The translations under genes were made by a program, and so were the position numbers. From a bacterium (GTDB taxonomy: Bacteria > Patescibacteriota > Minisyncoccia > Phycocordibacterales > CAIZLB01): DNA of 38,394 bases. Location of the stretch: contig JAIXXV010000002.1 of assembly GCA_027490575.1 (NCBI GenBank), forward strand, positions 1 through 38,394, read 5' to 3'. Shown here piece after piece: positions 8,843 to 38,394 of the stretch (position 1 is the stretch's first letter; each line of letters begins with the position of its first letter). The notes below the pieces were generated by a model that worked only from the letters and a program-made list of their open reading frames with translations, ran no database searches and was not told the origin of the DNA.

Positions 8843-8915
8843 TTGTTTATTAGTTTAATTCGCCACTTTATAAAAATTTTATTTTTACATAATGTGAAAG
8901 TTGTATTGTCTGTAC

Positions 8916-9926
8916 ATGGCAGACATACCCGTAAAACAAAACAAGATACATATATATAAGAGAGATGATGTACCAGATATATCAATAGCTGATATCACTC
9001 CCGTCTTTAAGTCAAAAGGCGCAACTGGTTTTATTGATTATGTTGTTGAATACGCACTTTCTATAGATGCAAGCGATATACACATAGATCCTTTTCCCGA
9101 CTATTCTATGGTCAATATGCGGGTCAATGGATTTCTGAGGTCTGTATTCAAATTGCAAAAGAATCTAATACTAGAATGTATTGGACGTATAAAAATACTG
9201 GCAAAGTTGCGCACTGACATAAACAACAAGGCGCAGGATGGCCGATATGAGTTTATGTCACAAGAAAAAGAACGCATTGATATGCGTGTTTCTACCATGC
9301 CGACTTTCTACGGAGAGAATGCAGTGCTTAGGATACTTAGGCCATCCAAGCAAAGAGATTTAAGTCTAAATACACTAGGCATGGATGACACACAGGTCGG
9401 CACGCTCAATCGCTTTGTAGATAAACAACAAGGCCTGATACTGGTGGCAGGGTCCACTGGCTCTGGTAAAACTACAACTATATATGCATTTTGTAATCTC
9501 CTCATAAAAGCAAAGCGCAATGTGGTAACCGTGGAGGACCCAGTCGAATACCTAATAGACGGTGCAAGGCAAATACAGATAGCGGAAAGTTACTTTGGAT
9601 TTTCTGATGCTCTTAGGTCGGTACTAAGGCAAGATCCGGATGTCATTGTGGTAGGCGAGATTAGGGATTCAGAAACAGCACACCTAGCTTTTCGAGCCGC
9701 TCTTACTGGTCACCTTGTGATAGCAACCATACACGCTGAGGATTCATATGGTGTCAGAGATAGACTGGTGGACTTAGGAGTATCAGAATCCATGCTCACT
9801 CTTTTAAAACTTATCATATCACAAAAGCTCAAGCCTGTGACAGATGAAAAGCAAAAAGTCATATCCAGAAAAGCAGATTTTCACTTTTTGGATTTAACAA
9901 ATACTGATAATGATAAGCCACAGTAG
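8916..9926 (+). CDS. Short PilB/PilT/GspE-family secretion ATPase
   Basis: This 336-residue ATPase powers a type IV pilus or type II secretion-like machine. It has the N2-like region SDIHIDPF (53-60), Walker A GSTGSGKTT (179-187), the Asp box TVEDPVEY (205-212), Walker B VIVVGEIRD (243-251) and the His box TGHLVIATIH (264-273). PilB proteins are usually about 560 residues. This one lacks the N-terminal MshEN domain and stops shortly after SQKLKP, where PilB carries the CxxC zinc element, so it is nearer PilT in size. I chose ATG 8916; a TTG at 8901 would add five residues. It opens the pilus cassette, with pilC 82 nt downstream. Confidence 0.9.
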   Translation: MADIPVKQNKIHIYKRDDVPDISIADITPVFKSKGATGFIDYVVEYALSIDASDIHIDPFPDYSMVNMRVNGFLRSVFKLQKNLILECIGRIKILAKLRTDINNKAQDGRYEFMSQEKERIDMRVSTMPTFYGENAVLRILRPSKQRDLSLNTLGMDDTQVGTLNRFVDKQQGLILVAGSTGSGKTTTIYAFCNLLIKAKRNVVTVEDPVEYLIDGARQIQIAESYFGFSDALRSVLRQDPDVIVVGEIRDSETAHLAFRAALTGHLVIATIHAEDSYGVRDRLVDLGVSESMLTLLKLIISQKLKPVTDEKQKVISRKADFHFLDLTNTDNDKPQ

Positions 9927-10008
9927 TTATATATTGGTGTATTTGCGCGGACAGGTGGCACTAATGATAAGTCACAAAGAACGTAGAGAGAAAAATACTT
10001 AATGTAAA

Positions 10009-11058
10009 ATGAAAAAACAAAACTCCTTAATCATTCAAAAATATTTCAAATATGTATCGCTGTATCTTTCATCTGGACACAGTATTGACGACTCATTTAG
10101 AATTGCTTTAAAAAAGATTAAGGATAGGAGAGTCTGTAGACATTTTACTGATTTTGTAGAATCGCTTAGAGAAGGAAAAAGCATAGATGATGTACTCGAA
10201 GCACTCTTGAAGCAAGGTATCATAGACAGCACTGTATATGCACTTATACTTGTCGGTCACAAAAGTGCAAATCTACCACTGTCACTTATGGAGATATCAA
10301 AGTATTTGGAAAAGAACAATAGCTTCAAAAAATCACTAGTCGGTTCAATGATTTATCCTGCGGTTGTCATAGTATCCGCAAGTCTATCTGTACTATATAT
10401 AGTATATATCGTTCTGCCTAAAATACTCCCAATATTCAAATCCTTAAAGGCACCGCTCCCCAAGACGACAGAATATTTACTTCATTTTACGAGCCTTCTG
10501 TCTAAATATGGTCTTATATATTTCGTAGCTGTTATCTTTGTTATGGCAATAGTATTGGTTATATATATGTATAATGAAAATCTCAGAAAAACTTTGCACT
10601 TTTATGTCTACTTGATACCAGTACTTGGCAAGGTCATATTTTTATGCGATATGAGAAATCTGTCACTTTGTTTAGGTACATTATTGAAATCCAATATGAG
10701 CATCGTTGATAGTTTTGAGGTGGGGATATCATTTACAAAAAATCTTCATATCAAAGGTGCTCTGTTAGATATAAAGGCCGGTATTTCATCAGGGCAAAAC
10801 TTATCCAGCGCAATTACCGAAAAGCATTTACTTGCAAATGAGTTTAAGGACTTTGCAACTTTAGGTGAAGCTACAGGAACCATGGCAGAGTCATTTTTAG
10901 ACCTAAGCAATATATCTATGTACGAATATGAAGACGAAGTAAATAAAATATCAAAACTAGTTGAGCCTATCGCGCTTCTAATATCAGCAGGTCTTGTACT
11001 TACTGTTGCACTGTCTGTTATAAGCCCAATGTACATGTTAGTTAATTATGTAAATTAA
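10009..11058 (+). CDS. pilC: PilC/GspF-type inner-membrane platform protein
   Basis: This 349-residue protein is the polytopic membrane platform of a type IV pilus/type II secretion-like machine and binds the ATPase. It contains two repeated T2SSF domains. Membrane helices are at about 117-140 (following SMIYPAVV), 168-188 and 320-343. The signature after the first helix, KSLKAPLPKTT (144-154), matches the family's lpxxT loop. The second repeat contains the FATLGEATGTMAESF-type segment. It follows the ATPase gene on the same strand and precedes two prepilin genes, the first by 18 nt, which suggests one transcription unit. Confidence 0.93.
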   Translation: MKKQNSLIIQKYFKYVSLYLSSGHSIDDSFRIALKKIKDRRVCRHFTDFVESLREGKSIDDVLEALLKQGIIDSTVYALILVGHKSANLPLSLMEISKYLEKNNSFKKSLVGSMIYPAVVIVSASLSVLYIVYIVLPKILPIFKSLKAPLPKTTEYLLHFTSLLSKYGLIYFVAVIFVMAIVLVIYMYNENLRKTLHFYVYLIPVLGKVIFLCDMRNLSLCLGTLLKSNMSIVDSFEVGISFTKNLHIKGALLDIKAGISSGQNLSSAITEKHLLANEFKDFATLGEATGTMAESFLDLSNISMYEYEDEVNKISKLVEPIALLISAGLVLTVALSVISPMYMLVNYVN

Positions 11059-11076
11059 ACTTCTATTAAAAGACTG

Positions 11077-12471
11077 ATGGCAAAAAATAATTTTGAGAAA
11101 AAGCGCGGAATAAAATTCAACATAATATCCAGCACCAAACCATATGGATTCAGTATGATCGAAATACTACTTGTGGTATCTCTGTCTACTTTTCTCTTTA
11201 TGCCAATCATTACACTGCTATATAGTTTTTATAATGGCTTAAATCAAAACCATGATGATAGTGCCCATGAGGACATTTACTTATCTAAAAACACCAAGCT
11301 TACAAAATACAAAGAGGGGTTGATCTTGGTAAACCATCCTCTTGGTCAATATTCAAATGATAATAGTGATTGCCCTGTGATGGAAAAAATCGGTAAAGAT
11401 ATTGCGCTTAAAAATGAGCTTAAGTTTTCCTTAAAATCAATACCCTCAATAGACATAGGATTTCCGACGTCGACTCTGGCAACTGGTCTTAGTTTGATAG
11501 GTTCAAATATTATAACGTCTGTTGACTCTTCAAGTACTACACTTGAAGACATTATAGTTTATGGTTACGAAAATATGTCTCTACTTAGACGAAGTCTTGT
11601 TGATACTGGTCCTGGATATTTAGGTATAGCCTCAGACGGACACAGTCTTTATCTTGCAAACACTAGCGTCAATTCCCAGGCTCATTTGTTGGACGGTTTG
11701 TTTACCCAGGACTTGTTACGGGGCATTACTGGTGCTATCCAAAGAATTGATCCAGAGCTATCTAGTCCAACTGAAATTCTTAAAAGTTTTAAATTTCCAG
11801 GTGCAAACTCTAGTACTTCGCCCATAACAAAAAAGATTATAAAACATGGTGATTTACTTGTTGTTGGAACACAGAAAACTTCCTTAGATGAAATACATAT
11901 ATTTGATGCAAACACTGGAGTTTTGCTCTCATCTATAAATACTGAATATGGCATAAATGCCATGGCTATTTACGACAATCATTTGATAATACTTGGACCA
12001 CAAGATCCGGAGATTCAGATATATGACGTAAATAATCCAGCTCAACCTACCATTGTTAGTGAATATGATTTGAAAGGCGGGTCGGGGAATGGAAGGAGTA
12101 TCGGTATATTTGGAGAAAGGATGTATGTCGGCAGATCAAAAGGCGGTGAAGAGCTCATGGTTTTTGAGACAAAGAGTATTGGAGATGATTACAGGCTGGT
12201 GCAAGTGGCTAGTGAAAAAGTCGGACATAGTATTGACGTTCTCGTACCGCATAGAGATTTTGCTATGTTGTTCACATCAAATCAACATGGTGAAGTATAC
12301 ATAGCCAAGCTAGAAAAAGGTGTCACGGGTAAAAGTATTTCATTGGAAAATCTACCACTGAATCTCGAAGGTAGAGTTTCAGATTATGTATGTGTTGGTA
12401 ATGATATTGTCTTATCAATCCTTAATACCGAATACCCATTTGCAATATTAACTTATGAAAATGACAACTAG
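11077..12471 (+). CDS. Prepilin-like protein carrying a C-terminal beta-propeller
   Basis: This 464-residue protein joins a type IV prepilin start to a propeller. The leader is long and basic (1-24), ending YG before FSMIEILLVVSL. Cleavage would fall after Gly24 and leave Phe+1 and Glu+5 (residue 29), the classical prepilin pattern. The hydrophobic helix runs to about residue 50. Residues 170-464 show about six weakly similar blades; one, IQIYDVNNPAQPTIVSEYDL, fits the LVIVD repeat type, and others contain LVVG, MYVGR and VYIAK strands. Pilins are normally 120-180 residues, so the propeller is an extra exported head. It lies between pilC and a minor prepilin gene it overlaps by 17 nt. A tip adhesin role is inference. 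Confidence 0.78.
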   Translation: MAKNNFEKKRGIKFNIISSTKPYGFSMIEILLVVSLSTFLFMPIITLLYSFYNGLNQNHDDSAHEDIYLSKNTKLTKYKEGLILVNHPLGQYSNDNSDCPVMEKIGKDIALKNELKFSLKSIPSIDIGFPTSTLATGLSLIGSNIITSVDSSSTTLEDIIVYGYENMSLLRRSLVDTGPGYLGIASDGHSLYLANTSVNSQAHLLDGLFTQDLLRGITGAIQRIDPELSSPTEILKSFKFPGANSSTSPITKKIIKHGDLLVVGTQKTSLDEIHIFDANTGVLLSSINTEYGINAMAIYDNHLIILGPQDPEIQIYDVNNPAQPTIVSEYDLKGGSGNGRSIGIFGERMYVGRSKGGEELMVFETKSIGDDYRLVQVASEKVGHSIDVLVPHRDFAMLFTSNQHGEVYIAKLEKGVTGKSISLENLPLNLEGRVSDYVCVGNDIVLSILNTEYPFAILTYENDN

Positions 12472-12838
12472 ACATAATCGCAATTCTAAAAAAGGTATGA
12501 CAATCTTTGAGATTGTCATTTATGTAGCGCTTTTTTCAATATGCTTTAGCACTATTATGATGACAGTATTTTCTATGCAAAAAACAATACTTCGGATTTC
12601 AGAGAACAGAAAAGTGTCCATAGCAAACATGTACATATATGAGTATGTCAGGAACGCACTTCATGGAGACAAGGTCGTCACTGCAGAAGATATAAACACA
12701 TTTGCTAGAAAGATTTCTCCGTACATAGAGATCGGCACTTTTGAGATTGATAGTTTTGAAAAAATCCCACAAGACTATGTGGAACTTAAATACAAAGTTG
12801 ATAATAAATCTCAAGAAATAAAAATTGATATGATATAA
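12455..12838 (+). CDS. Minor prepilin-like protein
   Basis: This 127-residue protein has a type IV prepilin signal: a basic leader (residues 1-14, ending KKG) followed by MTIFEIVIYVALFS. Cleavage after Gly14 gives Met+1 and Glu+5 (residue 19). The hydrophobic helix spans about 15-43 and is followed by a small mixed alpha/beta head with no cysteines. The start overlaps the propeller-bearing prepilin by 17 nt, so the two are probably translated together and may assemble as adjacent minor pilins. It resembles PulJ/GspJ-like or GspI-like minor pseudopilins in layout, but I cannot assign a subtype. Confidence 0.82.
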   Translation: MKMTTRHNRNSKKGMTIFEIVIYVALFSICFSTIMMTVFSMQKTILRISENRKVSIANMYIYEYVRNALHGDKVVTAEDINTFARKISPYIEIGTFEIDSFEKIPQDYVELKYKVDNKSQEIKIDMI

Positions 12839-20361: not shown

Positions 20362-21705
20362 ATGTTTGAAAAAATAGGCGCATTTTTTACTGCCATATTA
20401 GTTGTATTCGGTGGAGGAGGTATTGCAAAATATCAGGGTGATTGGTCAGGTGTTGCTCTAGTTGATTCACAATATCAACAAGAGTGTATGAATGTTACAT
20501 TTAAGATTAATATTTCTAAATCTGGATCAGTTTCTGGGTCATCAAGTGATGGTGGAAATCTTATCGGAAACATAGATGATAAAGGTGTATTTAGTGGGAC
20601 ATCAGGTTTTGTAGATTTCAAAGGTAACTTTACAAAGAAAAGTGGTTCAGGTACTTGGTACACCAATTCACTTTCACCAATAACTTGTTCAGGTACATTT
20701 ACAGCGGATAAAGGTGCAAAAACAAAAGCTTCTGTAAACGTAAATACAGATGGTGTAAATGTAAATGCCGGTGGTCTGAATGTTAATGTTCAAGACGATC
20801 AAACGGCTCCTGGCAATAGCGGCTTTGCGTCAACAAATGGATCTTGGTCAGGTCTGACTTCTGTCACAGGAGGTGCTGATGAATGTATATCAGTAAATGT
20901 AAAATTTGTAGCAAATAACGGTAGAATAAGTGGTACTACAAGTGATGGGGGTACTCTTGTCGGTACTGTGGATGTAAACGGAAACATGACTGGTACATCT
21001 GGAGTTGTAAATTTCACTGGAAATATATCTGGTAACACAGGCTCAGGAACATGGTCAACAAACTCAAACTCACCTGTAGACTGTTCAGGAACTTTCAGAA
21101 TTACAAGAGGATCTTCATCACCAGTTAACACAGGTGCTGGTTCAGGTTCTGTAAATGTAAACGCTGGTGGCGTGAACGTTAATACAGGTAGTTCAGGTGT
21201 TAATGTAAATGCTGGTGGAGTAAATGTTAATACTGGATCAACTCAAACAAACTCAACAGTTTCTGGATCTTGGTCTGGTTCTACTAGGGTAACATCTGGA
21301 TCATGTATACCTGTAACTTTGAGACTAAGTATTTCAAATGGAAGAGTTTCTGGTACAGCGAGTGACGGTGGTTCATTTGTAGGAACTGTGGCTTCTAACG
21401 GAAGATTTACAGGTACTTCAGGTGCTGTAAATTTCACTGGAAATATATCTGGTAATTCAGGATCTGGTAACTGGTCAACAAATGACTTCTCACCTATAGA
21501 CTGTGCCGGTACATTCACAATATCTAAAGGAACTTCATCATCAGTTAATACAGGCTCTGGTTCTGTAAATGTAAATACTGGTGGAGTAAATGTTAATACT
21601 TCTAGTAATGGCGCTGGTGGAAGCATTAATACTGGAGTAAACAACATCAATGAGGGTGCGAATGATATCAATGATGCCAGAAGCATAATCGAGTCTGTAT
21701 TCTAG
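20362..21705 (+). CDS. Exported protein with three paired-cysteine repeats and VNVN linkers
   Basis: I know no family for this 447-residue protein. A hydrophobic N-terminus (about 5-22, signal peptide or anchor) precedes three homologous beta-rich repeats of about 90 residues (27-115, 160-248, 302-389). Each begins near a WSG, contains DGG, GTSG and a WxTN-SP-CxGTF ending, and has exactly two cysteines: 42/109, 175/241 and 315/381, spaced 66-67 residues apart. One disulfide per domain is likely. The linkers are repeats of VNVNxGGVNVN (about 124-142, 263-291 and 400-413), which look like short beta-strand or fibre segments. Codons are Asn-, Gly-, Ser- and Thr-rich. It may be a surface or matrix protein; the DsbA-like enzyme at 5189 could oxidise it. 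Confidence 0.8.
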   Translation: MFEKIGAFFTAILVVFGGGGIAKYQGDWSGVALVDSQYQQECMNVTFKINISKSGSVSGSSSDGGNLIGNIDDKGVFSGTSGFVDFKGNFTKKSGSGTWYTNSLSPITCSGTFTADKGAKTKASVNVNTDGVNVNAGGLNVNVQDDQTAPGNSGFASTNGSWSGLTSVTGGADECISVNVKFVANNGRISGTTSDGGTLVGTVDVNGNMTGTSGVVNFTGNISGNTGSGTWSTNSNSPVDCSGTFRITRGSSSPVNTGAGSGSVNVNAGGVNVNTGSSGVNVNAGGVNVNTGSTQTNSTVSGSWSGSTRVTSGSCIPVTLRLSISNGRVSGTASDGGSFVGTVASNGRFTGTSGAVNFTGNISGNSGSGNWSTNDFSPIDCAGTFTISKGTSSSVNTGSGSVNVNTGGVNVNTSSNGAGGSINTGVNNINEGANDINDARSIIESVF

Positions 21706-26298: not shown

Positions 26299-29200
26299 AT
26301 GAAACAAAAAAGTCTGCATTTCATAAACACATTTCTTCTTTCTCTAGTCATTATGACTTCAGTTTTTTTTGTTTATCCATTTAAAACATTTGCGGAAGAT
26401 GAAGTTGCGCCAACAACAACTGAATCTGTTTCTGCACCAGTTGAATCAATTGCACCAACAGAAACAGTTGTTGAAGTTACAACTCAAGAAACAACAAACA
26501 CTTCTAATAACACAACTTATACGTCAACTGAAACTACTACAACAAATTCTGAAAATAATAATGTTCAAGTTACAAACACAGGTTCAGGTAGTGAATCAAA
26601 TTCATCGACCGGCACAACGACTGATGACCAGTCAATAATTACAAACGAAAACTCTACTTCAACGTCTCCTACATCGGGCACATCAACTTCTACGCCGGAT
26701 ACATCAACTAGTACTACAGACAACTCAACGACAACTATTGCGATTGAAACAAATCCAACATCGACATCAAGTAGCACTGAATCAACTTCAACTTCAACTA
26801 CTGCAGACACGACATCAACATCTACGGACTCAGCATCAAATTTAAGCAATGATGAAACATCAACTGCTTCATCAACTCAATCTATAACTACTACTCAAAC
26901 AACAACTACTACTGATACAAATACTTCAACTTCAACAGAAATATTTTCAACTTCTACAAATGCTCTATCTCCAAATATTTCAGAAGCACTTGATGATGGT
27001 AAAAAAATTGTAACTATATCTTCACCTGAAGGATATGATCCTGCTACGATGATAAACATTCCTGTAAAGATTTCTATTCCAGAAATGTTCAAGGTTGGTC
27101 AAGAAGATCAGATACAAATAAAATGGCAGAACAATGAAAATCTAAATATGCAATTTGTTGCAACTGATGAAGATGGTGATGGTTACCTTGATCACGTTAG
27201 TTGGATAGTTCCACACCTTTCAACTCAAATATTCGAAATTATATTTGTATCTAGCGCACTAAGACTTGATGCTGATAAAAATATTATTGATGACGTTTAC
27301 AGTTTTATAAAAGATAGAGATCAAAATTATGTAAGTGTATCTAATGGACAATTTGTAAGAGTGACATTCGAACATCTCTTGGATAACACAAGAGATATTA
27401 CACTTTTTGCTCGACCTACAAATCCTGGTGAATCAGTAACTGTAGAAGCTTATACTCTAGATGGAACACTTGTTGGAACTTTCGCTACTATAAATGCAGA
27501 TGGAAGATATAGTCTAGTTTTAAATAATCTTGCAAACCCTTCAGCTGTATTTGACTTGAAGATAATGGGTAACCTAGACATAGACTATATTATTGACCCA
27601 AACGCTTTCTGGGTAGGTGGAACAGGAAACTGGTCAGATCCAACTAAGTGGTCATCAACATCAAACGGTGCTGGAGGAAGCTTCGGCGGTATACCTGATG
27701 CAACTACAGCAGTATTTATAGATGCGAGTTCAGGAAACGCATCATCAATCATTACTATAAATACAAATGCTACTGTAGGATCTATCACAGTAAACGGATA
27801 CACAGGAACAATAGTTCAATCAGCAAATCTAACAATCACAAATGCATCAGGACAATCAGGTAACTATGTGCAAAACTCAGCTGCAACATTCACAGCAACT
27901 AATCCTGGTACAAATACATTCTCAGCTACTGGAAACTTTGCTATCAATGCAGGAACATTCAGAAGATACACAGGTTTAGGAATCAGCTCTGACCCATTTG
28001 TAGTTTTCGATGTATACGGACTACAAGGTATGTCTACGAATCTTGGTAGTTCATATAAATTGAATAATGATATCTCTGCATCAGTTACAAGTGGGTGGAA
28101 TTCAGCTTCTGGTTTTAGACCAATAGGAAACTTAGCAACTCCTTTCACGGGAATATTTGATGGAAATAATTTTGCAATCAACGATTTGTTTATTGCTACA
28201 ACTTCAGCCAACTACGTTGGTCTTTTTGGTTACTCTACAAACCTTATAAAAGATGTATATCTAAACTCAGCGTCTATATCTGCTACAAGTACAAATGGTG
28301 CAGTAGGAAGTAATGGTGCAAATGGTACAAACGGAGCTGCAACTTCAAACGGTGCAAACGGAGGAGCGGGTACAGCAGGAGCTACACTATTTTTGGGAGG
28401 TATAGTTGGATACAACACTGGAATATTATCTAATGTAAGTGTAAGTGGAAGTGTTAATGGTACTGGTGGATCTGGTGGTGTAGGAGGAACTGGTGGAAAC
28501 GGTGGAAATATCACAACTGGTGCAAACACCGGTGGCTTAGGAGGATCTGCTGTAAGTAACGCTGCGGCGGTCGGAGGTTTAGCATATGTCGGAGGTATAG
28601 TTGGATATTCGCAACAAGGAAGTGTGACATCAGCTTCAAGTTCTGCGACAGTTATAGGTATTGGAGGTGCTGGAGGAGCAAGTGGTAATGCCGGTAATGG
28701 AGGAAATGGATCAACCGCAGGTGTTGGAACTGGTATAGGTGGAGCTGGAGGTTCAGCCGCAGTTGCTGGAGCTGGTAACATAGCGTACGTAGGTGGTGTA
28801 GTAGGGTGGTTACATACAGGTACTTTATCTTCTTCAAATGCGACAGGTGAAGTCACTGCAATAGGCGGAGCGGGAGGTAATGCTGGTACATCAGGTGCAG
28901 GAGGAAATGCAGGTACAGGCGCAGGTGGTGCAAACATAGGAGGTGTAGGTGGTGCAGGAGCATCAGGGGGTGCGGCGGCGGCTGCCTTTGCGGGAGGTTT
29001 GGCAGGGAACAACTCAGGTACAATTCAAGAAGGTAGTTTTGCAACAGGTAGAATAATAGCGATTGGAGGTACACCAGGTAATGGATCTGCTGGAAGCACT
29101 GGAGGTGCTTCAGCTGCTGGATCTACTGTAGCAGCCGCATCCGGTCTTACTGCAGTCGGAGGAGCTGGCGGTGCAGGTGCGGCGGCATATGCAGGCGGAC

Positions 29201-32200
29201 TAGTAGCACTAAATAACATATCCGGAGTAATAACTGGTACATCTACATTGATTTATGCAGCTGGAGAAGTTACAGCTACAGGTTCTTCAGGTAGAAACGG
29301 AACTGCTGGTGGTGCTGGAGGAAGTGCAGCTTTGACTACTTCTGGTACGGGAGGTGTGGGTGGATCGGGTGGTGCTGGAGGCGCAGGTGGTGCAGGGTAT
29401 GCTGGAGGATTGGTTGCATTAAATCAAGGTGTCATATCTGCAGTATCTTCATCTGTCGGAACTACCACTGTTATGGGTGGAGCAGGAGGAAACGGAGGTA
29501 CTGGTGGAGTGGGTGGTGCAAGAGGTTCTGCTGGTACTTCAGGTGTGGGAGGTGCATCTGGTAACGGAGGTTCAGCCGCAGTGCTTCCGTCATATGCCGG
29601 AGGTGTGGTTGGAAGCAATACAGGTATAGTAGAATGGGCATCTTCTACTAATGTTGTTATTGGTACAGCTGGAGCTGGAGGTGCTGGAGGAACTGGAGCT
29701 GCAGGTCAAACAGGTCTAGCTGGTATTGCTGGAGGAAATGGCGGTGCCGCGGGTGTACTATTTATAGGTGGTGTTGCCGGGAACAGTACATTTTCAATAA
29801 ATAACACTAATCACACATTGGGTGCTGTTATAGGAACAGCTGGAGCCGGCGGTGCCGCTGGTGTAGGAGGTGCAGGAGGTGCATGGGCTGGTGGTACTCA
29901 AGGTGCTTCTGGTGCCGCTGTAGTAGGAGGTATTGTGTATGCCGGTGGAGTTGTTGGACACAATAACGGTACTACAGTTTTTAATTCTTACTCAACTGGA
30001 CCTGTTACAGGAACAGCTGGAGTGGGAGGAGCCGGTGTACAAGGTGGTAATGGATACACATTTACAACAGGTGTAGCTGGAGTAGCAGGAGGTGTTGGTC
30101 TAACTGGGGGTATAGCATACGTAGGAGGTGTTGTTGGTTTTTTAAATAACGGTGAAATTCAAAATTCATATTCGACAGGAGTCATAACTTCATTCGGTGG
30201 AGCTGGGGGTGCAGGAGGAAACGGAGGTAATGGTGGGGCAGGTACTTCAAACACTGGCGGAGCTGGAGGTGCAGGAGGAAACGGTGGTACAGGAGGTATT
30301 GCATATTCAGGCGGTGTCACGGGTATTATTTTGATAGGTACTGTATCTGGTAGTTATAATACTGGGGATATCATTGCAACGGGTGGAAACGGAGGTGTCG
30401 CAGGAAATGGAGGTAATGGTGGTATTGGCGGAACAAACTTCGCTGGAGGTGTTGGAGCTGGTGCTGGAGTGGGAGGTGCGGCAGGAAACTCAGCTGCTGG
30501 AGGTGTTGCAGGGCAAAGTGCAGGAATTATCCAATCAAACTCATATTCAGCCGGCAATGTCACAGCACTTAGTGGCACAGCGCAGGCTGGAGGTGTCGGT
30601 GGAAATGGAGGTGCTTCTACAGGAACCTTTGTAGGCGCAGCAGCTGTGGGTGGATCGGGTGGTGCTGGAGGAGCAGGTGGCTCTCCTTTTGCCGGAGGAA
30701 TAGTAGGTAACAATACAAACTCTATAGTGGATTCTTATGCTAGTGGAAATATAGTTGCTACTGCATCTGCTGGAGGCAATGGCGGATCTGCAGGATTAGC
30801 TGGCAGTAATGCATCAGGTGGAGCTTCAAGTACAGGAGCGGCAGGTGCAAACGGTGGTGCGGGTGGCGCAGGTGCAATAGCACATGCTGGAGGTATAGCT
30901 GGTTTGAATGCAGCTTCTATAACAAATGTTTATGTCGCGTCAGGTTTTGCTACTTCTACAGGAGGAAACGGCGGTGCCGGTGCTGATGGTGGAAACGCTG
31001 GGGTTGGAGGTACGGGCGCTTTGGGTGCTGTTGGTGGAAACGGTGGTGCTGGCGCCAACGGTGCTATCGGATACGCAGGAGGACTTGTTGGTTTTAACTC
31101 TGCTGGAAATGTTAACAGTTCGTATTCAACAATGTCTGTGGTAGCAATTGGTGGTTCATCAGGAAATTCAGGAAATGGAGGAAATGGAGGCGCGGGAGCG
31201 GTCGGTGGAGCAGGAGGAGGAACAGCTGGTACTGGCGTAGGTGTAGGTGCTCCTGGCTATGCTGGCGGACTTATTGGTATGAACAGCGGATCAGTCAACG
31301 GTTCGTATTCGACGGGTGATGCAACCTCAATAGGTGGTGTCGGTGGTGCTAACGGTCGTGGTGGAAATGGAGGTAGTAGAGCAACTTCTGCCGGTGCTTC
31401 AGGAGGTGCCAGTGGTACAGTTGTTACAAACATTGGAGGTATAAGTTATGCTGGCGGGCTTATTGGATTTAATACAACAAACGGAAGTATAGCGGCATCG
31501 TATGCTACTGGTAACGCAAATGCTACAGGTGGTGCTGGTGCCAATGGGCCTAGTGGTGCTAATGGAGGAAGTACAGGCGGTTCCTTTACAGGAGGTTCAG
31601 GTGTTGCTGGTCAATCTGGAACAACAGGAGGTGTGGCTTCTGCTGGAGGTTTGGTTGGTTTGAATACTGGTACTGTATCTTCTAATTCTTATGCTGCAGG
31701 GAGCGCTTTTGCAATAGGAGGAACTGGAGGTGCCGGAGGAAATGGTGGTAATGCTGGTGCGTCAGGGCCAAACTTTGCAGGTGTTACTGGAGTTGCTGGA
31801 GGAAACGGTGGTAACGGTGGAGCTTCATATGCTGGAGGAATATTTGGTATTAATACATCAGTGGGTGTAACAATCACTATTGCTAATGCCACAGGAACAT
31901 TTTCTTCTATAGGAGGTATGGCTGGATCAGCTGGAAATGGTGGTAATGGAGGTAATGGTAGTACTACACCTGCTACTATTGGAGGAGTTGGAGGAGCAGG
32001 AGGAACTGGGGGGACCGGAGGACTGTCTGCAACCGGGGGTATAGCAGGTTTTAGTAGCGAGGGAACAATCAGAGACATCATATATACAATCACATCTATT
32101 ACTGCAACCGGAGGTACAGCGGGTGCTGGCGGTATTGGTGGAAATGCAGGTGCATCTGGAAATGTTTCTGGCGGATCTGCTGCAACTGGTGGTTCTGGAG

Positions 32201-35200
32201 GAACTGGTGGTGTAGGAGGCGCAATCAACCTAGGAGGAATTGTTGGTGACAATGCGGGTTTTATTGAGAATGTTATTGTAATTGGTAGTTTAAATGCTAC
32301 AGGGACAGTTGGTGCAGCGGGTAATATTGGAGGCTTGGGTGGAAACGGTTCTCTAGGTGTCAGTGGTCATACTGGAGGTACGGGTGGAGCAGGAGGAAAC
32401 GGAGGTAACGGTGGTTTGATATACATAGGTGGCATAGCTGGTACAAGCAATGGAAATATATCAAATTCAACTACAACAGGAGGTTCTATTATGGTTACAG
32501 GTGCAAGTGGTGCAAATGGAGGAGCAGGGTCTGCTGGAGGTGTGGGTGGTTCCGGAAGTGGAAGAAATGGGGTTGGTGGTGCTGGTGGAACAGGTGGTTC
32601 GATAGGTCTTGCTTTTGCTGGTGGAATAATCGGCCATTCGTCACTTGCTTCGACTTTGCTAGACAAAGTTTCTTCGACACAAAACATAACTGTCATTTCT
32701 GGAAATGCTGGAAATGGTGGTAACAGTGTAGATGGGGTAAATGGTGCTGCTGGTAGTGCAGGAGGTATAGGTGGTAACGGTGGAGCAGCTGCTTCAGCGG
32801 TTTCGGCTGGAGGAATTGTTGGATATATCGCAGGTTCAGGTTTTACAATCAATACTTCTTATGCAACAGGTAATGTTGTTGTTGTGGGGGGTAATGGTGG
32901 TAATGGTCAAGTTGGAGGTGTAGGTGCTAATGCTATTAGTGCTGTTGCTGGAGGTGCAGGAGGAAACGGAGGAGCAGGTGGAGCAGGTGGATTTGCATAT
33001 GGTGGAGGACTTGTAGGTTTTATAAATACAATTGCTTTGATTAGTGATTCTTATGCAACAGGTGAAGTTTCTGTGACTTCAGGAAATGGAGGAAATGCTG
33101 GAAACGGCGGAGCCGGTGGAACAGGAGGAGCTTCTCAAGTTGGAGGGGTAGGAGGTGTTGGTGGCGCTGGTGGATTAGGAGGTTCATTGTTCAGCGGAGG
33201 ATTGGTTGGACAAATAGCTTCAGGAAATATTTCAAATTCGTATTCAACAGGGGCTGTAGAAGGAATTTCTGGTAATGGTGGAAATAGTGGAAATGGTGGT
33301 AATGGAGGAAATGGTGGTTCAGGTTCAGTAGGTACTATAGGTACCGCGGGTACTGCTGGTGCTGCTGGAGGTATAAATTATACCGGCGGACTTGTTGGGT
33401 TTAATACATCACATATACTGCTTTCATATCATGTTTCTGGTACAGTAACTGCAATAAGTGGAAATGGTGGTAATGGTGGAGCGGGAGGAAACGGTGGAGC
33501 ATCTGGAAACGTAACTGGAGGTTCTGCAGTGGCGGGTGGAGCAGGTGCTGCTGGAGGTATAGGTGGCGCATTGTCTGCAGGAGGGTTAGTAGGATTGAGT
33601 GGTGCTACAGCCTTGTCATCATCTATAACTGATTCATATGCAACGACTGATGTTGTTGCAACATCAGGAAATGGAGGTAGTGGTGGTGTGGGAGGAAATG
33701 GAGGAAATGGATCAGCTGGAACAAACCACACAGGAGGAGTAGGTGGAGCGGGAGGTGCAGGTGGTTCAGGCGCAAACGTCTTTGCGGGATCGCTACAAAT
33801 AGGAGGATTAGTTGGTCAAAATACTTTAGGTACTATATCTGGTAGTTATTCAAGAACTGGCACGATTACTGCTATTGGCGGTAATGGAGGTATAGCGGCT
33901 CTCGGTGGTATAGGTGGCGTCGGAACTGGTACAGCTGTTCATGGAGTAGGAGGTGCTGGGGCTACTGGAGGTTCAGGAAGTACTATTTACGCGGGTGGAC
34001 TTGTAGGTTTTACGACAGGTGTCGTACAAAATACATCATACTCACAAACAACACTTATTGTAACAAGTGGATCTGGTGCTAATGGATCAAATGGAATAAG
34101 TGCTACAGCAAACAGCGGTGCAGCTGGAAGTGTTCCTGGAGGAGGAGGATCAGCGGGTCTAATATTTGTAGGCGGTCTTGCTGGATACACTACATCAAAT
34201 GTCATATCTTCTTATGCTAGTTACGATAGTGTTTCTGGAAAAGGAAATATTACTTTCACAAGTGGAACACCTGGAAATGGTGGTAATGCAGGTAACGGAG
34301 GATCTGGACTAGCTGCTGGTGGAGCAGGAGGTGCAGGCGCTGTAGCAACCCTAGGGTCAGGTGGTGCATCGTCACTAGTCTTTGTTGGAGGATTATCTGG
34401 TTTTGCTTCTGGTGTAATAACGTCATCTTATGCAATAAATATAAATATTTCTGGAAGTATAGGAGCTGGAGGTAATGGTGGCTCTGGAGGAAATGGAGGA
34501 AATGGTATTGGATCTTTCAATGGTGGTGTCGGTTCAGTAGGAGGAATTGGAGGCGCTGGCGGTACTGTATTATCTGGAGGTCTAGTTGGTGAGTATTTTC
34601 CAACCGCAGCTACTGCTGGTTCAATACAAGGCGGATCTTATTCAAATATAAACATAAATGTAGTTGCAGGTAATGGTGGTAACGGTGGAGCGGGAGGAAA
34701 CGGTGGAGCATCTGGCTCAGGTCAATCAACTGGAACTTCAGCTGTGGCTGGTGTGGGTGGAGCAGGTGGCGCGGGCGCAACTGCCTTTGCAGGAGGATTG
34801 GTTGGTCGTATAAACGGTACAACTCAGATAATTCAAATCGCAGACTCTTATGCAACCGGTAGTACAACTGCCACAGCAGGAAACGGTGGTAACGGCGGAG
34901 CTGGAGGAAACGGTGGTAATGGATCTACTGGAAGTGGTACTCATGCTGGAGCTACAGGAGGACTTGGTGGAGTAGCGGGAGTAGGTGGTGAATCTAACGC
35001 TGGTGGACTGCTAGGTCGTGGTGATATAACAACAGGTGCTTTAGACACGATATCTGTATATTCAACAGGTGCTGTAAATGCTATAGGTGGTAATGCTGGC
35101 ACTGCAGGTACTGGAGGAAATGGAGGTGCTTCTGCTACAGGTGCTGCGGGTAGTGCTGGTGGTGGAGGTGTAATTGCGGCAGTTGGAGGTGCTGCGTATG

Positions 35201-38200
35201 CTGGTGGTCTTATAGGAATACACAGAATAACCACAACTCCTGGACAAGGTGATATCTTGAATTCATATGCTACAGGTAATGTAACTGCTATTGGTGGTAT
35301 TGGTTCAAATGGAAATATTGGTGGAAACGCTGGTACTGGTGGAACTATAGGTGGATCAGGTGGTGTAGGAGGTCCGTCAGGTATAGGTGGAGAGGCTTAT
35401 GCAGGTGGTCTAGTAGGTCTTGCAAGTGTTACAACTGGTTTTATAAATTATACAAATAACTTTACCACCATAGTAAGCGTTAATGCTATTGGAGGTGCAT
35501 CTGGAAATGGTGGAATTGCTGGGGCGTCTACAGCTGGTGGAACTGGAGCGGGTGGTGCTAGTGCCGCATCTGGTTCAAGTGCCTCAGGAGGAGCTGCGTA
35601 TGCCGGAGGTTTGATTGCTCAGGTTGTTGCCACTGCAAGTAACAACTTGCAGATATCAAATAACTATTCAATCGGTAATGTTAGCGCAACAGGAGGAGCG
35701 TCAGGTAATGGTGCTAACGGTGTAGTCGGCGGAGCAGGAGGAACAAATAGTATTGGTGGAGCAGGAGGAGCTGGTGGAGCTGACGGTACTGGAGGTGCTG
35801 CCTATGCTGGTGGTCTTATAGGAACAAATGGAACGGCAGGAGGTGTTGGTGGTGGTATAATCCAAGATAATTCATTTGCATCAGGTACTACAACGGCTAC
35901 AGGTGGTAGTGTTGGGATAGCAGGAACTGGTGGCACTGGCGGTGCAAGTAATATTGGTACAGCTACAACTGGAGCTACGGGCGGAAACGGCGGTGCTGCT
36001 GGTGCCGGAGGTGCTGCGTATGCTGGAGGTTTGATAGCAAACAATGGAGCAACAGGAGTTGTTTTGAATTCTTTTGCAACAGGTACAGTAATAGCTGTAG
36101 GAGTAAATGGTGGTAATGGAGGTACAGGTGGTAATGGAGGTGATGCATCTCTAAGTACAGGTGCTGGCGGACTTGCTGGTATCGGAGGTACTGCTGGAGC
36201 AGGTGGAGCAAGTTTTGCAGGTGGACTTGTTGCAAACAATGTCAGCGTGTTAAACACAATTACAACAAGTTACTTTGTTGGATCTCTGGTGTCAGGTATT
36301 AGCGGAAACGGAGGTGTGGGAGGAACAGGAGGAAACGGAGGTCTTGGTGGATCAGCTGCAACTGGTGGTGATGGACGTCAAGGAGGTACAGCCGGAGTCG
36401 GTGGAGTTTTATACGTAGGTGGATTTGTAGGCTTCAATAACGGAACAATACAGACTTTTTCATATGCAAGAACTAATGTAACTGGAGTTGCTGGTTCTGG
36501 TGGTGCGGGAGGTGCAGGAGGAAATGGTGTCAATGGATCAAATGGAACTTCAGGTAATGGAGGAAATGGCGGTGCAGGTGGTGTAGGTATCATAGGAGGT
36601 GCAGGAGGTGCTGGTTATGTAGGTGGTTTTGTCGGGTGGCACAACACCTCAAGAACAATTAGTGATGCTTTTGCAATAGGCAGTGTCACAGTTCTTGGAG
36701 GAAACGGTGGTAATGGAGGAGTTGGTGGAAATGGTGGTAATGGAGGAAATGGTGCATTGTCTGGTACGGGCGGAACTGGAGGTGTTGCTGGTGCAAGTGG
36801 TGCTGGAGCAAATACAGATGTTGTATACGGAGGTGGGTTTGCAGGATACAGTGCAGGTATAATAAACACAGTTTACTCAATTGGATCAGTTTCTGTTACA
36901 GGTGGTGCTGGTGGTAATACAGGTAATGGAGGAAATGCTGGAAACGGTGGAAATGGTGGACCAACGGGTGCAGGTGGTGCCGGTGGCGCTCAAGGTGCAA
37001 CTGCCGCTGCTGGTAATGGAGGTATTCCAGCCGCAGGTGGACTAATAGGTCGTATTTTTACAGGAGGGTCTCTATTAAACTCATGGACATCTGGAGCGGT
37101 CTCAGTTTCTGGAGGTAATGGTGGAAACGGAGGTGTTAGAGGTAATTCAGGAACAGGAGGTGCTGGCGGTACTGGAGCAGGAGGAGTTGGTGGTGCTAGT
37201 ATCTCAGGTGGTGCTGGAGGAGGAGGTGCACCCGCATTTGCTGGAGGACTTGTTGGTGAACTAATTAATGCATCAATCATTAACAGCTATGCTTCAACTA
37301 GCGTATATCTACTAGGAAGTAATGGAGGAAACGGTGGTAATGGAGGAAATGGTGGCGCAGGAGGAACAGGAGGATCTTCAGGTAACGGTGGTGCCGGTTC
37401 AAGTGGACTTGTTGGTGGTACAGGTATCGTCGCAGGAAATGTATTTGGAGGAAGTTTTGTTGGAGACGTTCTTGGTTCAACAATTACAAATGCATATGCA
37501 CTAGGCAGTGTCACTGTTATTGCAGGTAATCCTGGTGTTGGTGGAAATGGAGGAAATGGTGGAAATGGAGGTGTGGCTGGCGGAGCTAGTGCGGGTTCAA
37601 ATGGAAACGGAGGATCAGGTGGAGCTGGAGGTGCAGGTGCATCAGCTTTTGCTGGCGGTCTATTGGGAAGAAATGGTACAACTGTTGTTACAAATACATA
37701 TGCAACAGGTATTCCTGTTGCAACTAGAAGTCTGGGTGCTTCTGGAGGTACAGGCGGGGTAGCTGGAGTTGGAGCAGGTGCTGCTGGTTCGCCAGGTGCT
37801 AATGGGGCCACTGGAGCATCTTCTGCTCTAGAACAAGCTGGAGGTATTGTAGGAAGTACAGGCGGAACATTCTCTTCAGGTTATTTTGATGCTACAACAT
37901 CAGGTGCAACTTTCGCTGCTGGGAACTCAACAAACCCTAGTGGAACAGCCAGTAGGACTACAACACAAATGGAGCAACAAGCCACATTTACTGGTTGGGA
38001 TTTCACTACGCTTCCTGTTTGGAAAATAGTAGAAAATTCAACGTATCCGTATTTTGGATATCAAACATCACCTGAAGCGCCTACAAATGTAGTTGCAGTA
38101 GGTGGAAACGCTCAGGCAACTATAACTTTCACTCCACCTGGAGATGTTGGAGGTTCACCAGTTCTGTACTACACCGTCACATCAAATGCCGGTCACACTG

Positions 38201-38394
38201 CAGTCGGTGGTTCATCACCAATCACAGTACTAGGTCTAACTAACGGTACTACTTACACATTTACAGTAACTGCAACTAATGCATTCGGTACAAGTACAAT
38301 ATCTGCTACAAGTAATTCTGTAACTCCTGCAACTGTTCCAGATGCTCCTACTAACGTAGTTGCAGTTCGTGGAAACACTGAAGCTACAATCACA
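26299..38394 (+). CDS. Giant GLUG/Gly-Gly-X repeat surface protein, 3' end outside window
   Basis: One frame stays open for 4032 codons and runs off the window. A signal peptide (about 1-34, ending KTFA) is followed by a Ser/Thr-rich stalk (about 37-225), then a region with the DxDGDGYLDH-WIVPHLS motif (about 230-315) seen in CPR and DPANN surface proteins. A beta region follows (315-433), then a WVGGTGNW beta-helix-like domain (437-570). From residue 640 to about 3855 there are about 50 GLUG-type units with glycine-rich inserts. A closing block (GWDF, VWKI, YPYFGY, about 3895-3920) ends the GLUG array, and fibronectin type III domains start at 3922 and 4015, the second cut by the window end. 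No cysteine is seen. It is a likely secreted adhesin or cell-contact fibre; attachment is unknown. Confidence 0.9.
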   Translation, partial: MKQKSLHFINTFLLSLVIMTSVFFVYPFKTFAEDEVAPTTTESVSAPVESIAPTETVVEVTTQETTNTSNNTTYTSTETTTTNSENNNVQVTNTGSGSESNSSTGTTTDDQSIITNENSTSTSPTSGTSTSTPDTSTSTTDNSTTTIAIETNPTSTSSSTESTSTSTTADTTSTSTDSASNLSNDETSTASSTQSITTTQTTTTTDTNTSTSTEIFSTSTNALSPNISEALDDGKKIVTISSPEGYDPATMINIPVKISIPEMFKVGQEDQIQIKWQNNENLNMQFVATDEDGDGYLDHVSWIVPHLSTQIFEIIFVSSALRLDADKNIIDDVYSFIKDRDQNYVSVSNGQFVRVTFEHLLDNTRDITLFARPTNPGESVTVEAYTLDGTLVGTFATINADGRYSLVLNNLANPSAVFDLKIMGNLDIDYIIDPNAFWVGGTGNWSDPTKWSSTSNGAGGSFGGIPDATTAVFIDASSGNASSIITINTNATVGSITVNGYTGTIVQSANLTITNASGQSGNYVQNSAATFTATNPGTNTFSATGNFAINAGTFRRYTGLGISSDPFVVFDVYGLQGMSTNLGSSYKLNNDISASVTSGWNSASGFRPIGNLATPFTGIFDGNNFAINDLFIATTSANYVGLFGYSTNLIKDVYLNSASISATSTNGAVGSNGANGTNGAATSNGANGGAGTAGATLFLGGIVGYNTGILSNVSVSGSVNGTGGSGGVGGTGGNGGNITTGANTGGLGGSAVSNAAAVGGLAYVGGIVGYSQQGSVTSASSSATVIGIGGAGGASGNAGNGGNGSTAGVGTGIGGAGGSAAVAGAGNIAYVGGVVGWLHTGTLSSSNATGEVTAIGGAGGNAGTSGAGGNAGTGAGGANIGGVGGAGASGGAAAAAFAGGLAGNNSGTIQEGSFATGRIIAIGGTPGNGSAGSTGGASAAGSTVAAASGLTAVGGAGGAGAAAYAGGLVALNNISGVITGTSTLIYAAGEVTATGSSGRNGTAGGAGGSAALTTSGTGGVGGSGGAGGAGGAGYAGGLVALNQGVISAVSSSVGTTTVMGGAGGNGGTGGVGGARGSAGTSGVGGASGNGGSAAVLPSYAGGVVGSNTGIVEWASSTNVVIGTAGAGGAGGTGAAGQTGLAGIAGGNGGAAGVLFIGGVAGNSTFSINNTNHTLGAVIGTAGAGGAAGVGGAGGAWAGGTQGASGAAVVGGIVYAGGVVGHNNGTTVFNSYSTGPVTGTAGVGGAGVQGGNGYTFTTGVAGVAGGVGLTGGIAYVGGVVGFLNNGEIQNSYSTGVITSFGGAGGAGGNGGNGGAGTSNTGGAGGAGGNGGTGGIAYSGGVTGIILIGTVSGSYNTGDIIATGGNGGVAGNGGNGGIGGTNFAGGVGAGAGVGGAAGNSAAGGVAGQSAGIIQSNSYSAGNVTALSGTAQAGGVGGNGGASTGTFVGAAAVGGSGGAGGAGGSPFAGGIVGNNTNSIVDSYASGNIVATASAGGNGGSAGLAGSNASGGASSTGAAGANGGAGGAGAIAHAGGIAGLNAASITNVYVASGFATSTGGNGGAGADGGNAGVGGTGALGAVGGNGGAGANGAIGYAGGLVGFNSAGNVNSSYSTMSVVAIGGSSGNSGNGGNGGAGAVGGAGGGTAGTGVGVGAPGYAGGLIGMNSGSVNGSYSTGDATSIGGVGGANGRGGNGGSRATSAGASGGASGTVVTNIGGISYAGGLIGFNTTNGSIAASYATGNANATGGAGANGPSGANGGSTGGSFTGGSGVAGQSGTTGGVASAGGLVGLNTGTVSSNSYAAGSAFAIGGTGGAGGNGGNAGASGPNFAGVTGVAGGNGGNGGASYAGGIFGINTSVGVTITIANATGTFSSIGGMAGSAGNGGNGGNGSTTPATIGGVGGAGGTGGTGGLSATGGIAGFSSEGTIRDIIYTITSITATGGTAGAGGIGGNAGASGNVSGGSAATGGSGGTGGVGGAINLGGIVGDNAGFIENVIVIGSLNATGTVGAAGNIGGLGGNGSLGVSGHTGGTGGAGGNGGNGGLIYIGGIAGTSNGNISNSTTTGGSIMVTGASGANGGAGSAGGVGGSGSGRNGVGGAGGTGGSIGLAFAGGIIGHSSLASTLLDKVSSTQNITVISGNAGNGGNSVDGVNGAAGSAGGIGGNGGAAASAVSAGGIVGYIAGSGFTINTSYATGNVVVVGGNGGNGQVGGVGANAISAVAGGAGGNGGAGGAGGFAYGGGLVGFINTIALISDSYATGEVSVTSGNGGNAGNGGAGGTGGASQVGGVGGVGGAGGLGGSLFSGGLVGQIASGNISNSYSTGAVEGISGNGGNSGNGGNGGNGGSGSVGTIGTAGTAGAAGGINYTGGLVGFNTSHILLSYHVSGTVTAISGNGGNGGAGGNGGASGNVTGGSAVAGGAGAAGGIGGALSAGGLVGLSGATALSSSITDSYATTDVVATSGNGGSGGVGGNGGNGSAGTNHTGGVGGAGGAGGSGANVFAGSLQIGGLVGQNTLGTISGSYSRTGTITAIGGNGGIAALGGIGGVGTGTAVHGVGGAGATGGSGSTIYAGGLVGFTTGVVQNTSYSQTTLIVTSGSGANGSNGISATANSGAAGSVPGGGGSAGLIFVGGLAGYTTSNVISSYASYDSVSGKGNITFTSGTPGNGGNAGNGGSGLAAGGAGGAGAVATLGSGGASSLVFVGGLSGFASGVITSSYAININISGSIGAGGNGGSGGNGGNGIGSFNGGVGSVGGIGGAGGTVLSGGLVGEYFPTAATAGSIQGGSYSNININVVAGNGGNGGAGGNGGASGSGQSTGTSAVAGVGGAGGAGATAFAGGLVGRINGTTQIIQIADSYATGSTTATAGNGGNGGAGGNGGNGSTGSGTHAGATGGLGGVAGVGGESNAGGLLGRGDITTGALDTISVYSTGAVNAIGGNAGTAGTGGNGGASATGAAGSAGGGGVIAAVGGAAYAGGLIGIHRITTTPGQGDILNSYATGNVTAIGGIGSNGNIGGNAGTGGTIGGSGGVGGPSGIGGEAYAGGLVGLASVTTGFINYTNNFTTIVSVNAIGGASGNGGIAGASTAGGTGAGGASAASGSSASGGAAYAGGLIAQVVATASNNLQISNNYSIGNVSATGGASGNGANGVVGGAGGTNSIGGAGGAGGADGTGGAAYAGGLIGTNGTAGGVGGGIIQDNSFASGTTTATGGSVGIAGTGGTGGASNIGTATTGATGGNGGAAGAGGAAYAGGLIANNGATGVVLNSFATGTVIAVGVNGGNGGTGGNGGDASLSTGAGGLAGIGGTAGAGGASFAGGLVANNVSVLNTITTSYFVGSLVSGISGNGGVGGTGGNGGLGGSAATGGDGRQGGTAGVGGVLYVGGFVGFNNGTIQTFSYARTNVTGVAGSGGAGGAGGNGVNGSNGTSGNGGNGGAGGVGIIGGAGGAGYVGGFVGWHNTSRTISDAFAIGSVTVLGGNGGNGGVGGNGGNGGNGALSGTGGTGGVAGASGAGANTDVVYGGGFAGYSAGIINTVYSIGSVSVTGGAGGNTGNGGNAGNGGNGGPTGAGGAGGAQGATAAAGNGGIPAAGGLIGRIFTGGSLLNSWTSGAVSVSGGNGGNGGVRGNSGTGGAGGTGAGGVGGASISGGAGGGGAPAFAGGLVGELINASIINSYASTSVYLLGSNGGNGGNGGNGGAGGTGGSSGNGGAGSSGLVGGTGIVAGNVFGGSFVGDVLGSTITNAYALGSVTVIAGNPGVGGNGGNGGNGGVAGGASAGSNGNGGSGGAGGAGASAFAGGLLGRNGTTVVTNTYATGIPVATRSLGASGGTGGVAGVGAGAAGSPGANGATGASSALEQAGGIVGSTGGTFSSGYFDATTSGATFAAGNSTNPSGTASRTTTQMEQQATFTGWDFTTLPVWKIVENSTYPYFGYQTSPEAPTNVVAVGGNAQATITFTPPGDVGGSPVLYYTVTSNAGHTAVGGSSPITVLGLTNGTTYTFTVTATNAFGTSTISATSNSVTPATVPDAPTNVVAVRGNTEATIT
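26404..26970 (+). repeat. Ser/Thr-rich low-complexity stalk
   Basis: This part of the giant gene encodes about 190 residues that are mostly Thr and Ser with some Asn, Glu, Asp and Pro, in TST/STST-like runs. Such stalks are extended, and are glycosylated in many surface proteins. It sits between the signal peptide and the first folded region. Confidence 0.8.
28216..37866 (+). repeat. Array of about 50 GLUG-type units with PGRS-like glycine inserts
   Basis: I count 49 landmarks of the form (A/V/S)-GG-(L/I/V)-x-G/A from 28396 to 37840, after a first YVGLFGYS at 28213. Mean spacing is 197 nt (66 residues). Each unit has a GLUG-like core (AGGLVGxNxGxIxNSYATGxVxA) of about 28 residues and an insert of about 30-45 residues built from GGX triplets (GGNGGAGG and the like). 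The inserts sit at the same place in every unit. Codons alternate between GGA and GGT, so units are similar in protein but not identical in DNA. Well-preserved examples lie at 31078, 31264, 33004 and 33385. Confidence 0.9.

Follow-up and report, generated by a model that had tools for sequence, protein, structure and literature searches.

A giant Patescibacteria surface protein predicted to carry a polyglycine-II fin on a GLUG beta-solenoid

Introduction

To our knowledge, solved polyglycine-II lattices are rare and small. In gp38 of phage S16, two beta-helix turn extensions give rise to a sandwich of 10 polyglycine helices, arranged in three layers along the fibre axis (PMC6851490). For the PE_PGRS proteins, AlphaFold predicts flat polyglycine-II 'sails' with up to 54 helices (PMC9436101). 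Here, we analyzed a giant surface-protein gene that invites comparison with both, located at the end of contig JAIXXV010000002.1 from a bacterium of the Patescibacteriota (assembly GCA_027490575.1); the whole stretch of DNA analyzed, 38,394 nucleotides long, is referred to as the window. An original prediction, made from the letters of this stretch, proposed that GLUG-type repeats with Gly-Gly-X inserts form a beta-solenoid bearing a continuous polyglycine-II slab. From our computational analysis, we consider it reasonably probable that this Patescibacteria gene encodes a secreted surface protein with the shape of a finned rod held up by a stalk, anchored by a dockerin and tipped by a domain resembling a carbohydrate-binding module (CBM), which would act as an adhesin or a stiff spacer.

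Results

A regular array of GLUG cores and glycine-rich inserts

The gene occupies an open reading frame of 4032 codons (26299-38394, forward strand) that runs off the contig end, which is also the end of the window. Within this frame we located 50 GLUG anchors, the first at nucleotide 28213 (residue 639) and the 50th at nucleotide 37834 (residue 3846), giving 49 full units with a period of 65.4 ± 3.7 residues (range 56-74). The original prediction of about 50 GLUG repeats, with a mean period of 66 residues and inserts at a fixed place, agrees closely with these values, and its coordinates were right. Each unit consists of a core of ~28 residues followed by a glycine-rich insert of ~37.5 residues with Gly-Gly-X periodicity, and the position of the insert is constant: past the third strand, and ahead of the next 'YAGGLVG'. 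The proposed similarity to GLUG was found by profile, with 10 matches to PF07581 in the frame at E ≤ 1e-3, 7 of these over the Pfam cut-off, and matches in 11 of 47 units when these were scanned one by one (E ≤ 1). In addition, the Pfam PGRS family (PF21526) matches one window unit (E 0.0043). Searching the whole protein against Pfam and NCBIfam with hmmscan returned no match, probably due to glycine composition bias, so that routine annotation would miss the protein.

The claimed Gly-Gly-X character of the inserts is reflected in a glycine period-3 power of 1.21, compared to 0.25 ± 0.04 after shuffling (500 shuffles, maximum 0.38). Glycine occupies two phases of the arms at ~55-90% and the third at 3-15%. 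This third position (X) is filled by N, T or A in the outgoing arm and chiefly by A, V or T in the returning one, and a variable tip lies between the two; such X residues fit two layers with different faces. The array contains few charges and no cysteine. Identity between units within the protein is only ~48%, and adjacent units are hardly more alike than distant ones (0.51 versus 0.48), which rules out recent tandem duplication or slippage. Judged by these sequence comparisons, the array is therefore old and not repetitive DNA. This corrects the original prediction, as does the finding that the gene is incomplete in the window: the contig stops inside an Fn3 region, and the 3' end is missing.

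Predicted structure of the coils and the fin

Structure was modelled for 11 of the 49 units, in two separate stretches. For units 26-31 (5.5 units), AlphaFold2 was given 56 aligned rows, five-unit blocks cut without overlap from seven proteins, with orthologous and paralogous blocks mixed; overlapping five-unit windows slid to 100% identity in MAFFT, and non-overlapping blocks were used instead. This model reached a mean predicted local distance difference test score (pLDDT) of 94.5 and a predicted template modelling score (pTM) of 0.89, with the inserts mostly above pLDDT 90. The second AlphaFold model, covering the N-terminal domain and units 1-6, was built from 14 rows containing orthologues only, and reached a pLDDT of 70.7 and a pTM of 0.52.

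A Foldseek comparison of units 26-31 to the PDB placed the springtail antifreeze protein 7jjv first (E 1.5e-3). On structural alignment with VIA-align, units 26-31 superposed on 3n6z, a putative IgA1 protease of B. ovatus, over 173 residues (Z 19.6, root mean square deviation (rmsd) 2.2), and on IgA1 proteases with Z ~18. Their inserts superposed on 124 of 125 residues of 7jjv (rmsd 1.9 Å, Z 18.8), whose matched bundle consists of nine polyproline/polyglycine-II helices, and on 81 of 81 residues of the snow flea antifreeze protein 2pne (rmsd 1.4, Z 9.9). With the model of units 1-6, 3n6z was again matched, over 241 residues at Z 25.6, and so was 7jjv, over 125 residues at Z 12.7 with an rmsd of 2.3 Å. 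As two separate stretches with differently built alignments gave like matches, we read the models as a GLUG solenoid with inserts stacked as a polyglycine-II bundle. A beta-solenoid coil rises by ~4.8 Å, and polyglycine-II helices are also spaced ~4.8 Å apart. With equal spacings, a beta-solenoid can template a polyglycine-II lattice.

Based on these models, it is nearly certain that the GLUG coils form a solenoid core, and very likely that the inserts form an ordered polyglycine-II fin. Both parts of the original prediction, the solenoid and the slab of stacked inserts, are supported at the level of prediction: the solenoid core is present in both models of consecutive units, and neither shows merely disordered inserts. 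The predicted lattice is built from beta-helix turn extensions, as in the S16 gp38-type sandwich. S16 gp38 was absent among the structural matches listed, which leaves a similarity possible, and a viral structure library contained no match to the model at E ≤ 0.001.

Orthologues with the same number of coils

The unit alignment offered no stretch with enough conservation for a search of related loci. Using the N-terminal domain as a query instead, we scanned the genomes of 84,980 species and found 16 loci, of which all with a named source belong to Patescibacteria. The original prediction had suggested a look for homologues in other genomes of the candidate phyla radiation, and seven of these loci carry a GLUG-Gly-Gly-X array (Wolfebacteria, two Falkowbacteria, Doudnabacteria, Kaiserbacteria and two further bins, one of which is G031). 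The Doudnabacteria array is cut by the contig, with only its start present; the other six are complete. The array was found in 1 of 60 relatives checked (G031) and in 2 of 397 genomes of the order, including the window's own. A search of viral contigs with the N-terminal domain gave no relatives. Staskawiczbacteria and Nomurabacteria encode further large surface proteins with this domain (L042-L050), several of which bear a C-terminal membrane helix and lack GLUG repeats.

In each of the six complete arrays, 50 of 50 anchors map in register to those of the window protein. The length of a unit depends on its position: the eighth has 56 residues in every case and the 29th has 72-74, the correlation of unit lengths between proteins is 0.73-1.0, and 91% of lengths lie at most 2 residues from the median. 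Between the window protein and that of G031, 36 of 49 units find their best match at the equal position. Across the seven orthologues, the arm glycines are 89% identical and the X positions 39-45%, with hairpin tips that are no more variable than the remainder (mean identity 0.62 versus 0.58-0.65). In a comparison of the two Falkowbacteria, the ratio of nonsynonymous to synonymous substitution (dN/dS) in the array was 0.060/0.82 = 0.07. The arrays contain no internal stops, and one of the array-bearing assemblies is a 977-kb chromosome (CP066698). Unlike the array, the Fn3 stalk varies, with 11, 13, 21, 27 and 27 domains in the complete orthologues (counted as hmmscan stretches). In one orthologue (L040:21000-21493), 'QIMTSSDGIQW...SARQWRSVTYGNG' repeats follow the array closing in place of the Fn3 domains of the others.

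The relationships among the arrays do not follow those among their hosts. RpoB of the window organism is 73-74% identical to that of G031 and L040 and 55% identical to that of Falkowbacteria, and enolase is in line with this (72% versus 53%), whereas the array is 53-54% identical to those of G031 and L040 and 58% identical to those of Falkowbacteria. As RpoB and array distances are not positively correlated (Spearman -0.31), the simplest reading of these sequences is that the array was transferred horizontally between lineages.

Domain order, N-terminal domain and putative anchor

The gene and its parts, all on the forward strand, are as follows:

26299..38394, giant surface-protein gene, an open reading frame to the contig end (the G031 orthologue is complete, with 5194 residues)
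26299..26394, signal peptide, residues 1-32 (...FKTFA), read from the sequence by eye
26407..26970, Ser/Thr-rich linker, 58% S+T by composition
26971..27603, conserved N-terminal domain, residues 225-435, 51% identical to the G031 orthologue
27601..28212, N-terminal solenoid cap (NAFWVGGTGNW... FDGNNF), with model residues ≥334 superposing continuously on 3n6z 56-330
28213..37866, array with 50 GLUG anchors and 49 full units, residues 639-3856, from profile, repeat and periodicity analyses
37882..38064, C-terminal closing segment of the GLUG solenoid (YFDATTSG... GWDF..LPVWKI.E.STYPYF), from sequence, which closes the array in orthologues too
38074..38394, first Fn3 domain (Pfam PF00041, 35 bits) and the beginning of a second, truncated where the contig stops

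Residues 1-639 matched no Pfam family, so that no PE domain is present there; the protein starts with a signal peptide instead. Pfam scans of this N-terminal part and of the C-terminal parts of the orthologues gave no peptidase family. In the second model, residues 92-211 (residues 316-435 of the protein) adopt a beta-sandwich like those of CBM32 and CBM6, with Z up to 10.3. The N-terminal domain is thus predicted to resemble a CBM, although sharing a fold is no proof that glycans are bound.

The complete orthologue P0002 (5194 residues) has a C-terminal part of 13 Fn3 stretches and a dockerin. Dockerins (PF00404) score over cut-off at the C-terminus of five complete orthologues, and two calcium-loop motifs are seen in the C-terminal dockerin. 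Directly downstream in the orthologues lie genes for two cohesin-like proteins of ~200-300 and ~500-600 residues, both with a cohesin-like domain that is preceded by a signal peptide and followed by a C-terminal membrane helix (peptide and helix were recognized by eye). PF00963 was detected in 4 of 9 of these cohesin-like domains (best E 7.6e-8), with the others below detection; against PDB profiles they matched only cohesins, at a non-significant E of 0.42. In the genomes of Wolfebacteria, Kaiserbacteria and both Falkowbacteria, the only dockerin match is on the giant protein, and the two cohesin-like matches either adjoin its gene or, in one Falkowbacteria assembly, are split over contig ends. 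In the window's assembly, contig C6 starts within the second of these cohesin-like genes, which is therefore incomplete (G000:C6:1-1299, L032); in relatives, this gene sits two genes past the giant gene. As C6 opens inside this gene, contigs C39 and C6 are probably neighbours by their sequence, and the gap between them would hold the missing Fn3-dockerin stretch. Taken together, the conserved neighbourhood makes it likely that the rod is anchored to the cell by dockerin-cohesin pairing. More broadly, anchoring to the surface by cohesin-dockerin pairs may be widespread and too little described in this order of Patescibacteria.

Other genes in the window and its genome

Elsewhere in the window, type IV pilus or type II secretion-like genes at 8901-12838 encode a PilB-type ATPase, a PilC-type membrane protein and prepilin-like proteins. 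A secreted protein at 3392-5086 has Sortilin/BNR-type repeats, an Fn3-like domain and a C-terminal peptidoglycan-binding domain, and a 447-residue protein at 20362-21705 has three 'GSWSG..' repeats with VNVNAGGVNVNTG linkers in between. GLUG proteins of the ordinary kind were also seen. A second GLUG protein (G000:C16, L020:228-3353) has no glycine inserts, carries a C-type lectin domain and is cut at a contig end. Another, in a 5515-residue frame (L073, G230:C1:238000-257999), has several plain GLUG blocks (period ~27-40) and a peptidoglycan-binding-like C-terminus, and is a useful insert-free comparison.

Discussion

We propose the following architecture. The coils would stack into a right-handed beta-solenoid, in which 50 coils of 0.48 nm give a length of ~24 nm. 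Each insert would form an antiparallel pair of polyglycine-II helices with about five turns per arm, and neighbouring pairs would stack at the spacing of the coils, which equals that of the polyglycine-II lattice, to give a continuous two-layer fin that is ~5 nm in width and contains as many as ~98 helices. The dockerin would plug into the neighbouring cohesin-like membrane proteins, the Fn3 stalk would keep the rod at a distance of tens of nanometres from the cell, and the CBM-like N-terminal domain, the flat fin or both would contact a host cell, a polysaccharide or a neighbour. We regard adhesion as the function with even confidence for and against.

Several observations weigh against this picture. 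The high confidence in the inserts of units 26-31 depends on an alignment in which paralogous blocks stand beside orthologous ones, and in the orthologue-only model, with its mean pLDDT of 70.7, hairpin tips drop below 50. AlphaFold also gives polyglycine-II bundles for the Gly-Gly-X sequences of PE_PGRS proteins, where the study presents no experimental structure for any of them (PMC9436101). A sequence profile of the units found nothing relevant among PDB sequences. As for the anchor, the dockerin lies beyond the window and is absent from the organism's own, incomplete assembly; moreover, dockerins occur in 112 of 297 genomes of the order, mostly one per genome, and since they are this common, the presence of a dockerin alone is weak evidence.

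Among the alternatives, the one that survives best is that the rod is a passive spacer or coat, stiff, protease-resistant and non-binding, with a fin that merely stiffens the solenoid. We consider this unlikely. The fixed number of coils and their fixed unit lengths would suit such a rod, as would the few charges and missing cysteines of the array, the variable length of the Fn3 stalk (11, 13, 21, 27) and the retention of glycines while exposed X positions drift. However, a simple spacer would not need exactly 50 coils with position-specific lengths, and the CBM-like domain at the N-terminus speaks for more than a passive role.

That the inserts are flexible, disordered loops, acting as entropic bristles on a GLUG solenoid, is much less probable. 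Their richness in glycine leaves little side-chain chemistry, and the low pLDDT of the hairpin tips in the orthologue-only model fits this idea; the strict period-3 glycine pattern, the 89% conservation of arm glycines and the conserved insert lengths do not. Insert pLDDT values above 90 and superposition on antifreeze crystal structures at 1.4-2.3 Å argue in the same direction.

Less probable still is an ice-binding protein, in which the flat A/V/T-rich layer of the fin would bind ice in the manner of springtail antifreeze. The top matches of the inserts are indeed antifreeze proteins (7jjv, 2pne), and the X residues of the returning arm are mainly Ala, Val and Thr, but similarity in fold is no proof of function, and the same lattice occurs in S16 gp38 and the PE_PGRS proteins, where ice plays no part (PMC6851490, PMC9436101). 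Furthermore, the names of the relatives point to groundwater and other origins that are not specifically cold, and the X positions are unconserved, unlike what is expected for an ice-binding face. Finally, an assembly artefact or a decaying repeat array can be dismissed almost entirely: the contig ends in Fn3 repeats and the organism's own genome is without a dockerin end, but the 50-coil array recurs in six independent assemblies, one of them the 977-kb chromosome, with no internal stops and a dN/dS of 0.07.

A finned rod on a dockerin-anchored stalk, the architecture we prefer, would have wider implications. The family would show that a polyglycine-II lattice can reach almost any length when templated by a beta-solenoid with a pitch of 4.8 Å, and it would provide a definite candidate for a structure by which uncultured Patescibacteria attach, including an anchor that can be tested. 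It also presents a case of a 50-repeat array without drift in repeat number, unlike the neighbouring Fn3 stalk. If 50 coils are truly kept across distant lineages, the rod would be a molecular ruler. More tentatively, and with slightly more doubt than belief, we suggest a novel type of bacterial surface organelle, in which every coil of a solenoid of fixed length adds a polyglycine-II hairpin to a single continuous lattice of ~98 helices; it would be passed on horizontally among Patescibacteria as a cassette with its own dockerin-cohesin membrane anchor, and would reach host cells or polysaccharide.

The novelty claimed in the original prediction has to be narrowed in the light of known systems, as the S16 gp38 sandwich and the PE_PGRS sails precede this protein (PMC6851490, PMC9436101). 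Within the open-access papers searched, where absence is weak evidence, no paper joined GLUG and glycine-rich repeats, nothing addressed glycine-rich surface proteins of Parcubacteria, and no bacterial case of polyglycine combined with a solenoid was found besides S16. What stands as new, in that no description was found in this literature, is the hairpin on every coil over 49 units, with ~98 helices, the fixed count of 50 coils, and the dockerin-cohesin locus.

The predicted lattice resembles that of S16 gp38 in that polyglycine-II helices extend from the turns of a beta-helix and stack. It differs in having one hairpin from every coil, with ~98 helices over a 50-coil solenoid, and no sequence relationship to gp38 was found. 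The gp38-type sandwich has hypervariable loops for receptor binding; the hairpin tips of the array, at a mean identity of 0.62, vary about as much as its other parts. With PE_PGRS proteins it shares a Gly-Gly-X-rich, predicted polyglycine-II domain and the one unit that matches Pfam PGRS. However, the window protein is not filed as PE_PGRS: it has no PE domain, its glycine arms alternate with GLUG coils rather than forming a whole domain, and its unit number is fixed and not polymorphic. In core sequence and predicted fold it is like the GLUG proteins (PF07581) and relatives of M26 IgA1 protease (3n6z, 6xja), although no protease domain was found. Ordinary GLUG arrays (G230, G000:C16) have a period of ~27-30 and no insert; since the core profile matches PF07581, the period of 65 makes this protein a variant, and not a non-member, of the GLUG family. 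Consecutive inserts superpose on the whole bundle of the springtail and snow flea antifreeze proteins (7jjv, 2pne); there, the bundle is the entire protein, whereas here it would be carried on a solenoid. Finally, the C-terminal dockerin and the adjacent cohesin-like genes recall the cohesin-dockerin pairs of the cellulosome. In contrast to the cellulosome, divergent cohesin-like domains are borne here by single proteins anchored in the membrane, and the putative cargo is a giant rod instead of an enzyme.

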